Shown piece after piece: positions 34,996 through 40,967 of a DNA stretch of 64,000 nucleotides. The number at the start of each line of letters is the position of its first letter. Position 1 is the stretch's first letter. A program made the translations under genes and the position numbers. The notes below the pieces were generated by a model, which did not search any database, was not told the DNA's origin, and was given only the letters and a program-made list of their open reading frames with translations. This DNA is from Cucumis sativus (Eukaryota > Streptophyta > Magnoliopsida > Cucurbitales > Cucurbitaceae), in the NCBI RefSeq assembly GCF_000004075.3, contig NC_026659.2:2232001-2296000 (forward strand), written 5' to 3'.

Positions 34996-37629
34996 ATGAC
35001 CCAGACCCGATTCTTCAGAACTCGCAATTCCAAATCGGACAAAGAAGCAGAACCCACCACAAGCAGTGGCGGAGGAGCCGCCATGAGAGTCATAGTGCCT
35101 CTGCAAGGCGTCGTTCAAGGAAGAGGTGGCGTCGTTTTGGGCTCTGTTATACCTTGCGTTCTCTTCTACTTTCTTCAGCTATACTTGAAACGGAACCGGT
35201 CCGACCCCACCCGGGACCCTCCTTCTTCACCGGAAGTGGATTCTTCGGGGGACTCTTCGCCGTCGTCTAGTAATCAGTTCGTGGAGCTCTCTGTACTGCC
35301 TCGAACATTGTCTCGGAATTTTCTCTCGCCGAGGTCGTCTGGGCCGGTTTGCGTTTCGGGTCGGGCTAATTCGATTTCTAGAGTTGGGGATTCTTCGATT
35401 TTCGTTGGAATGAGAAGGTTCTTGGAGGACTCATTTGATGAATTGGATAATCCGACGGGGATTATTCAGCTTTCTGTTGCTGAGAATAAGGTGGGTGGCT
35501 TTATGCTTTTTGTTGGTTTGAATATGAGTCAGCAAGATTTTTGTGCTCTGAATTTCTCGGTTTCTGTGTTGACGATTGTGGATGTTTAATCAAACGATGA
35601 AGTTATCCTCGGACTTGGTGCAAAATTGGCTAACGGAGAATGGAAGAGATGCTATATTAGGGGTGAATCACAATGAGCTGAGTGTAGCTGGGACTGTTTG
35701 TTATCAGCCTTCAGATGGATTGAAGGATTTGAAACTGGTAATCAATTTTATTTGTCTTCTTTCTGTAATTGATGTTTTGAATCATTTGGGTTTGCACTTG
35801 TCTGTATGAATTCATTTTTAAGATGGAGAAATTGAATTGCTTGACCAGCTCTGTTTTTTGTATGTTGCATGTGCTTGGACTTGTGTTCTGTGCTAACATA
35901 GAGTATAAGGATATTAAATTTCTAAGCTTTTTCAAATGCTGATGACTTTATTTGAATATGTGCTTCACTCCTGTAAGGACCTTCTTCCTCTGTTTGTTTA
36001 CGCTCTTGATTATTATTTTAGTTTGATATGGATATCGCTTTTGCTTTTGGAGACTGGAGAAGATTTCAACATATGAATGAATGCATTGTAAAACATATAG
36101 TGAATGAAGTGAGATTTCAATTTATGAAGCGCAGAGTTGACTCCAATTAATATACTGGTTAGCATGGTCTATTGTTGCAATTAAGTGCCTCCTTTCATTT
36201 TCTATCGAGGAAATTAAGAATCATTTTCAAACCCTCGATGTTAATGTTTGATTCCAATATTTATATCTGCTCAAAGTATTCCCTTTTTCATATTTCTAAC
36301 TTTATTGCTACCTTTTCTTTGTTAACATGTTAGAGAAGACGTTTAAACTTTCTCCATTATTTATAGGTATTGGCTTTTTTATTACTTATGTCCTAGTTCC
36401 AGCTTGTGAGCTGTGTTGCCTTTAGTATTACCTTTTTATTTATACTGCATTTAATTGGTAACTTTCATATGGAGTTTCTTATAATGGATGTACTTTTGCC
36501 CAAAAGATTTATCTAGTCAAGCATCTTCTCACAGGCTGTAGCAAGTTTCATGTCTCAAGTTGTAGGGAACTCTGTTTCATTCAACCCTTCCCAGTTAGTA
36601 TTTACGACCGGAGTGACCTCTGCAATCGAAACTCTTTGCTTTTGCATAGCAGACCCAGGGAATGCATTTCTTGTTCCTACGCCATATTACCCTGGGTACT
36701 TGTTCATTCCTCTTTCATGAAATACTTCTTCAGTTTTATCTGGAAAAACTAAGAGTCTAAATCACAAATGCAGCCTTGACAATGATGTAAAATGGCGAAC
36801 TGGGGTGGAGATAGTACCCGTTCCCTGCCGCAGTGCCGATAACTTCAGTTTAAGCATAACTTCTCTTGATCGAGCATTCCACCAGGCAAGGAATCGTGGC
36901 CTTAAAGTTCGTGGAATTATTATCTCAAATCCCTCAATTCCCGTTGGAAATCAACTAAATAGAGAAACACTCTACGACCTTCTAGACTTTGCCAGGGAGA
37001 AAAACATCCATATCATATCAAATGAAATATTTGTAGGATCAACCTATGGAAGTGAAGAGTTTGTGAGCATGGCTGAAATGATCAATTTAGAAGACAATGA
37101 CCGAGACAGAGTTCATATTACATATGGCCTATCTGAAGACATGTCACTTCCTGGTTTTAGGGTTGCTGCAATCTACTCTTTAAATGAGAATATCCTGGCT
37201 GCTGCTCGAAAACTGGCAAGGTTCTCATCTGTTTCTGCCATAACCCAGAACCTGCTTTCCTCTATGCTTTCAGATACGCAATTCATTCAGAGGTTCATTC
37301 GGACCAATCGAGAGAGGCTTGGAGAAATGAATAGTAAATTCACTGCAGGGCTGAAGGAACTCGACATCAAATGTGCAAAGAGCAATGGTGGTTTCTACTG
37401 CTGGGCGGATATGAGCAAGTTAATCCGTTCTTACAGCGAGAAAGGGGAACTTGAGCTCTGGGAAAAGTTGTTGGATATAGGTAAAGTTAGTGTTACCCCT
37501 GGCTCTTGTTGTAATTGTATTGAACCGGGATGGTTTGGATTCTGTTTTACAGCTTTGATAGATAAAGAAATACCAATTGTTATGGACCGAATTCGGAGAA
37601 TTTCCGAAGCTTGTAAATCTTATACTTGA
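34996..37629 (+). CDS. ACS10-like aminotransferase homologue lacking the catalytic lysine (probable pseudoenzyme)
   Basis: Four exons, 34996-35490, 35603-35737, 36535-36695 and 36774-37629, with phases 0, 0 and 2, encode 548 residues, the length of ACS10-type proteins. The N-terminus has a membrane segment (about 44-64, [16 protein letters not shown]), and blocks such as [13 protein letters not shown] and PRTLSRN are typical of the ACS10/ACS12 branch, which is regarded as amino-acid aminotransferases rather than ethylene-forming ACC synthases. The fold-type-I PLP domain follows ([23 protein letters not shown]). Key residues are missing: the Schiff-base Lys of LSKD is Glu385 (GLSED, codon 37135), the PLP-contacting Asn of NPSNP is Ile319 (NPSIP), the carboxylate-binding Arg of WFR is Gly519, and the PLP N1-binding Asp of SDEI is Asn347. 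The last may be shared by the ACS10 branch. The frame and splice sites are clean, so this is not an ordinary decayed pseudogene. Catalysis by the normal mechanism is not expected. Confidence 0.9.
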
Positions 37630-38705: not shown

Positions 38706-39085
38706 TCACTTTCTCTGTTCCAAATGTGGGAATTTTTTCTGAAATTCAGTCAATAAAGCCAAATTCTCTTGATGAAGGATATTGGCTTTCTCTCTTAGTT
38801 TCTCATTCTCTTCAATTATGGTTTGATTCTCCAGATATAGCTGCAGATTCTTCAGCTCAATATCCTTCCCCAGCTTCTCTTCACATCTCCTCCTGCTAAA
38901 ATTTAAGAAAAGAAAACCCATCAACAAAAGTCTTCTAAAAAACCATCAAAAAGGTTAAATGGGGTTGTGTGAAAAAGCAACCTTGTAAGCCTCAGAACTT
39001 GAAAATTTGATCTTTTTGAACTTCTTCTGTTCTTTGAACTCTGAATTGTATGAAACAGAACACTCTGTGTTGCACTGACGCACAT
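38706..39085 (-). CDS. LITTLE ZIPPER protein (ZPR1/ZPR2-like)
   Basis: Exons 39085-38982 and 38895-38706 encode 97 residues. The small intron (86 bp) splits a Ser codon, and the first exon has no long frame of its own. The N-terminus MCVSATQSVLF and a basic stretch (SSKNRRSSKRS) resemble ZPR1/ZPR2. The leucine zipper (about 47-86) contains ELKNLQLYLEN, IIEENEKLREKA and LHQENLALLTEF, close to the HD-ZIP III zipper. There is no homeodomain. ZPR proteins dimerise with HD-ZIP III transcription factors and block DNA binding, in feedback control of leaf polarity and shoot meristems. The assignment rests on the zipper and the start; the choice between ZPR1 and ZPR2 is not possible. A TATA box lies about 80 bases upstream. 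Confidence 0.88.
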
Positions 39086-40868: not shown

Positions 40869-40879
40869 GTATATATATA

Positions 40880-40963
<84 letters not shown>
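40869..40963. repeat. Long (AT)n microsatellite
   Basis: About 95 bases of AT units with one phase break (ATTAT) near 40886. It is the longest simple repeat in the window and likely very variable between individuals. Confidence 0.95.

Positions 40964-40967
<4 letters not shown>

Follow-up and report, generated by a model that had tools for sequence, protein, structure and literature searches.

The usual classification of ACS10 and ACS12 as aminotransferases is based on the Arabidopsis proteins. AtACS10 has been published as an active aminotransferase (PMC10813531), and ACS activity has been published for the chestnut protein CmACS7, which groups with AtACS10 and AtACS12 (chestnut ACS paper); thus, the ACS10/12 clade is not inactive throughout. 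PMC9369044, citing Lee et al. (2018), states that cucumber CsACS10 is expressed and is inactive as an ACC synthase, and the same paper describes pumpkin ACS10/12-type proteins with significant changes in conserved residues. In quinoa, Glu takes the place of the box-5 active-site Lys in both CqACS10a (548 aa) and CqACS10b (547 aa), and the box-2 Tyr is Ser in AtACS10 (PMC10707884). Since the available text of that report names the quinoa pair alone for Glu, a Lys in AtACS10 is implied (PMC10707884). An N-terminal motif is exclusive to AtACS10 and AtACS12 among the proteins compared in PMC8580319. In bitter gourd, McACS10 and McACS12 have 548 and 510 aa, Ka/Ks ranges from 0.038 to 0.084 among McACS pairs (the membership of McACS10 in those pairs being unconfirmed), and the McACS10 transcript, at 19.80 TPM, was recorded in DRAR1 only of two lines (PMC13362086). 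Expression of ACS10 has been published for cucumber (PMC9369044), bitter gourd (PMC13362086), and quinoa (PMC10707884). The available portions of ACS papers on Hevea, cotton, chestnut, soybean, and legumes contain no statement about Lys in ACS10, and among the papers covered by a broader literature search, none described the loss of Asn, Asp, or Arg from ACS10. One paper places CsACS12 at the M locus, at odds with other papers (PMC11480664).

The locus considered here lies in a stretch of 64,000 nucleotides of Cucumis sativus DNA (the window; contig 5, positions 2232001-2296000, of a genome of 226.6 Mb in 88 contigs). The coding length of its ACS10-type gene is 1647 bases, the introns measure 112, 797, and 78 bases, and none of the frame or splice defects that mark a pseudogene was found. 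The product matches the Class I/II aminotransferase profile PF00155 with 254.9 bits (residues 157-537; profile positions 4-361 of 361). A protein and DNA search of the genome returned no second copy of the gene among the best candidates listed, the nearest being a gene on contig 3, L009. The lengths of the two products, 548 and 510 aa, are those of McACS10 and McACS12 (PMC13362086), and the choice between ACS10 and ACS12 rests on these matching lengths together with a Ser at the box-2 Tyr position, as published for AtACS10 (PMC10707884). The window gene is very probably the cucumber ACS10; we infer both names, CsACS10 for this gene and CsACS12 for its contig-3 sister, and with them the ACS12-type label of L009. 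Feature coordinates are collected in the table.

Features of the ACS10-type gene, in positions of the window
Feature	Position	Strand	Description
ACS10-type gene	34996-37629	+	four exons, 548 codons, sole stop terminal
Exon 1	34996..35490	+	codons 1-165; N-terminal segment, Ser/Pro-rich linker, start of aminotransferase domain; donor GT
N-terminal segment (MRVIVPLQG...LKRNRS)	35083..35202	+	codons 30-69; 34/40 identical to L009
Exon 2	35603..35737	+	codons 166-210; Q200 (kept) and S202 (box-2 Tyr position)
Exon 3	36535..36695	+	codon 211 to first two bases of codon 264; T238 and Y262
Exon 4	36774..37629	+	last base of codon 264 to codon 548 plus stop; large domain, catalytic loop, C-terminal domain
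I319 (ATT)	36937..36939	+	alignment: Asn in 9/9 comparators; PLP O3 contact (PMC8580319)
N347 (AAT)	37021..37023	+	alignment: Asp in 9/9 comparators; PLP N1 contact (PMC8580319)
E385 (GAA)	37135..37137	+	Schiff-base Lys in 9/9 comparators (AAA/AAG in 7 gene models)
R393	37159..37161	+	alignment: Arg of GFR (apple Arg281), kept
G519 (GGA)	37537..37539	+	alignment: Arg in 9/9 comparators (apple Arg407)

Elsewhere in the window, a long AT dinucleotide run is found at about 40870-40965. Between 2482 and 16868, both strands carry cytochrome P450-like reading frames, six in total, which probably form a cluster; they were named from their motifs. A short leucine-zipper-like reading on the minus strand at 38706-38945 (KNLQLYLENQTIIEENEKLREKANILHQENLALLTEFQKK) is similar to the LITTLE ZIPPER microproteins; its stretch 38706-38897 gave no Pfam match.

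The window protein was aligned with nine comparators, namely the models of seven other ACS-like genes of this genome (L001, L009, L010, L011, L012, L013, and L014) and stretches of 1m4n (apple ACS) and 7dlw (Arabidopsis ACS7), ACS chains having ranked top in the PDB search. Not included were L005 (a distant aminotransferase), the tomato chain 1iax, and two ACS-type matches with in-frame stops, each a partial last exon of L014-type ACS: C6:12940175-12940912 (L025; 98.7% over 763 bases, 6 gap openings, 5 stops) and C1:14329307-14329942 (L027; 98.2% over 758 bases, 7 gap openings, 6 stops). A chromosome-1 near-copy of L014 was excluded for its frame-breaking gap. This copy (C1:25426450-25428263; L023, L029) and L014 on contig 62 are near-identical AtACS7-type ACS genes; the former loses its frame through a one-base gap after ...SGSVFS and the latter is open, and the pair may be explained by misassembly involving a haplotype contig or, alternatively, by a genuine second copy. 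Within the alignment, the ACS-like gene model L011 (C6:575500-583000) has YYAA against YYPG in the other nine rows, and Arg where the other nine show the Gly of WRTG.

The initial annotation had described an intact four-exon frame of 548 codons with clean splice sites, in which Glu385, Ile319, Gly519, and Asn347 replace Lys, Asn, Arg, and Asp. Both parts of this description were borne out, as GT..AG bounds the introns in 3/3 cases, the only stop is terminal, and all nine aligned relatives carry Lys, Asn, Arg, and Asp at these positions. Each of the four changed codons is one base away from its L009 codon. The residue set of a true ACC synthase (Lys, Arg407, Asp230, Asn202, Tyr85) is replaced here by E385, G519, N347, I319, and S202, and E385 also occupies the place of the Schiff-base Lys by which a Class I/II aminotransferase is recognized as a PLP enzyme.

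Assembly or sequencing error at the four sites would have a parallel in the one-base gap that breaks the frame of the chromosome-1 copy relative to contig 62, which may itself be an error. Errors in long reads, however, are mostly indels. Here, four separate substitutions leave the reading frame untouched, and one has been published independently for quinoa ACS10 (PMC10707884); we consider error an extremely improbable explanation.

Eleven active-site columns were compiled from PMC10813531 and PMC8580319. Three of these, beyond the four replacements, also differ between the window protein and the eight true ACS rows: F350 and G382, at apple Y233 and S270, are common to L009, and S202 stands in the Y85 column, where L009 has F. 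The pocket residues Gln200, Thr238, Tyr262, and Arg393 are retained. By analogy with aspartate aminotransferase, and in agreement with the initial annotation, we take Arg419 to hold the substrate carboxylate and Arg293 the phosphate. The opposite assignment, carboxylate to Arg293 and phosphate to Arg419, is given in PMC8580319. Q200 lies at the AtACS7 Q98 position, at which L009 has Q as well; it should carry little weight, because the alignment is loose there and the chestnut ACS paper gives E/K for AtACS10/AtACS12.

Retention of the phosphate-side and stacking residues, with the O3, N1, Schiff-base, and Arg407 positions replaced, would suit a re-used pocket in which PLP, PMP, or another planar or phosphorylated ligand is bound non-covalently via Thr238, Arg393, and Tyr262, the protein serving as a sensor or supporting an unusual chemistry of Glu385. 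The Glu found at the same site in quinoa (PMC10707884) speaks for such a pocket as well. We nevertheless regard it as quite unlikely; the retained residues are invariant in 9/9 comparators, and folding may explain them.

The distribution of the losses was compared with that of conservation in general. The window protein departs from 19 of the 96 columns invariant in all nine comparators, namely 4/8 active-site and 15/88 other columns (one-sided Fisher p = 0.047); relative to the eight true ACS rows alone, 55 of 137 invariant columns are changed, including 7/11 active-site columns (p = 0.092), and both p-values flatter the case because the residue list was compiled after the finding had already named four of its members. 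The losses lean only weakly toward the active site. In a leave-one-out control that did not include the window row, the eight true ACS rows had 1-9 changes apiece, with 0/8 in the active site, and L009 had 41/137, with 3/11 in the active site. That 15 of the 19 changes fall outside the listed active-site residues counts against the non-catalytic explanation put forward below.

L009 retains Lys, Asn, Asp, and Arg. In a tree of the ten rows, it pairs with the window protein with a support of 100/100, separately from true ACS, and the end branches measure 0.72 for the window protein and 0.24 for L009. Given this threefold difference, some relaxation of constraint is involved. Counts of unique changes pointed in the same direction with all six outgroups, though less clearly, at 43-51 for the window protein against 26-32 for L009 (chi-square 1.9-6.5, above 3.84 in 2/6 cases), and this faster evolution of the window gene fits a partial relaxation. 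The two genes are an old paralogue pair and differ at 154, 107, and 268 first, second, and third codon positions in 509 codons. By all three methods applied, dN is far below a dS that is saturated and places recent selection out of reach: ML gave dN 0.274 and dS 2.19 (ratio about 0.125), NG86 0.286 and 2.12 (0.135), and LWL85 0.281 and 1.40 (0.20). Halving this saturated dS and splitting dN by the branches would put the ratio at roughly 0.19 on the window side and 0.06 on the L009 side, values that average over the time since the genes parted and are silent on the last few million years. Pattern searches for exon 4 gave 5 matches in viral contigs and 65 in prokaryotic genome contigs, and a two-row exon-4 alignment gave 56 pattern matches in prokaryotic genome contigs; none was a confirmed relative, and the residues given for the four sites in other eudicots are those described in the literature.

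The threefold end branch and the change of 19 of 96 otherwise invariant columns would also be expected of a young pseudogene, that is, a gene still transcribed and decaying under relaxed constraint, the protein of which no longer matters. Such decay is hard to reconcile with 1647 coding bases free of stops, frameshifts, and splice defects, with a length of 548 aa that recurs in bitter gourd (PMC13362086) and quinoa, and with a Lys-to-Glu change common to quinoa (PMC10707884). The McACS Ka/Ks values cited above point the same way, subject to the unconfirmed inclusion of McACS10 (PMC13362086). As a weak control, the partial L014-type copies L025 and L027 (98-99% identical) bear 5 and 6 in-frame stops. 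Decay is therefore an unlikely explanation.

Among six segments compared between the window protein and L009, the N-terminal one shows the highest conservation (see the table); identities amount to 20/53 in the linker, 38/54 in exon 3, 177/284 in exon 4, and 252/416 in the domain. The six other gene models, as built, are without this segment. For AtACS10 and AtACS12, an additional N-terminal motif, the AAT motif, has been published (PMC8580319). Codons 30-69 may encode a membrane anchor, for which hydropathy gives weak support. In the window protein, hydrophobicity over 19 residues peaks at residues 46-64 (mean Kyte-Doolittle 2.08); the L009 equivalent, at 1.89, scores just below a stretch of its own domain, at 1.91, so a membrane anchor is one possible reading.

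We propose that the window gene is an ACS10 with a class I aminotransferase fold that has lost Schiff-base chemistry, that it is under purifying selection, and that it acts non-catalytically, an explanation we hold to be probable as a whole. Counting against it are the faster evolution relative to L009, the confinement of the McACS10 transcript to one of two bitter gourd lines (PMC13362086), and the activities published for AtACS10 (PMC10813531) and CmACS7 (chestnut ACS paper). In the absence of Lys, no internal aldimine would form, and without Arg and Asp neither the substrate nor the ring would be held in the manner of the family. From what is known of the family, the missing Lys, Arg, and Asp make ordinary transamination or ACC synthesis very unlikely. 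The gene looks kept, given its intact frame, length, splice sites, and N-terminal segment and the recurrence of Lys-to-Glu in a distant eudicot order. A pseudoenzyme is the simplest account, and the protein probably serves a non-catalytic purpose.

The preference of the initial annotation for a retained pseudoenzyme of the ACS10/12 clade with a disabled PLP site over a pseudogene is upheld by the ACS10 proteins of the same length in bitter gourd and quinoa and by published expression (PMC13362086; PMC10707884). Its implication that the loss is peculiar to this gene is not supported: the same Lys-to-Glu substitution is present in both quinoa copies (PMC10707884), and the inactivity of CsACS10 as an ACS and the altered residues of the pumpkin ACS10/12-type proteins speak further against it (PMC9369044). 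The finding has largely been anticipated in print. The present analysis adds an inventory of the residues lost from the cucumber gene, set against an intact sister gene, and the link between the Lys-to-Glu changes of cucumber and quinoa.

For the function of such a pseudoenzyme, a regulatory or scaffolding partner may be considered, most simply one that dimerizes with ACS12, which retains all four residues; we offer this last step as plausible but tentative. ACS12 would be the best candidate partner on account of the common N-terminal segment, the common fold, and the reported tissues, and the N-terminal segment might anchor the window protein to a membrane. As the same change is found in both quinoa copies, Lys-to-Glu may be a trait of the ACS10 lineage; a parallel origin in the cucumber and quinoa lineages is possible. 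More speculatively, and in our view rather doubtfully, ACS10 could have borne Glu before the split of rosids and Caryophyllales and have persisted from then on as an obligate, catalytically inactive partner of ACS12, tethered to a membrane, in a plant equivalent of the LCB1/LCB2 pair. Arabidopsis would then be exceptional.

If the ACS10 proteins of cucurbits and quinoa cannot perform PLP chemistry, several crops carry an incorrect aminotransferase annotation for ACS10, and expression work in which ACS10 counts among the ethylene or aminotransferase genes would need to be reread. With Glu common to distant eudicots, a non-catalytic role can be tested directly, and the link between cucumber and quinoa turns an old, conserved pseudoenzyme into a testable claim.

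Among described systems, the quinoa pair is closest to the window protein. We take the Glu of AEN in the window protein to be the box-1 Glu. In CqACS10a, by contrast, the box-1 Glu is Lys, and the box-2 Tyr is Phe where the window protein has Ser (PMC10707884). CqACS10a and CqACS10b belong to the same ACS10/12 clade, have practically the same length (548 and 547 aa), and share the change of the box-5 Lys to Glu; the Asn, Asp, and Arg losses of the window protein go unmentioned for them in the available text (PMC10707884). AtACS10 and AtACS12, compared by description only, likewise share the clade and the additional N-terminal motif, and AtACS10 shares the box-2 Ser; they differ in being published as aminotransferases without ACS activity (PMC10813531; PMC8580319; PMC10707884). 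At the Q98 position the chestnut ACS paper gives them E and K, respectively; in our alignment, the window protein and L009 have Q. The pumpkin proteins CmaACS1 and CmaACS9, also compared by description only, group with AtACS10 and AtACS12 and have altered conserved residues (PMC9369044). Within cucumber, L009 resembles the window gene in its four-exon structure, its N-terminal segment, and the Phe and Gly at apple Tyr233 and Ser270, and is unlike it in keeping Lys, Asn, Asp, and Arg, in its 510 aa, and in its shorter branch. A functional precedent is offered by LCB1/SPT1 of serine palmitoyltransferase, a PLP-family subunit that lacks the Lys and is required beside a Lys-bearing paralogue; it belongs to another family and reaction, and the partnership is established there and a proposal here (PMC6148460).
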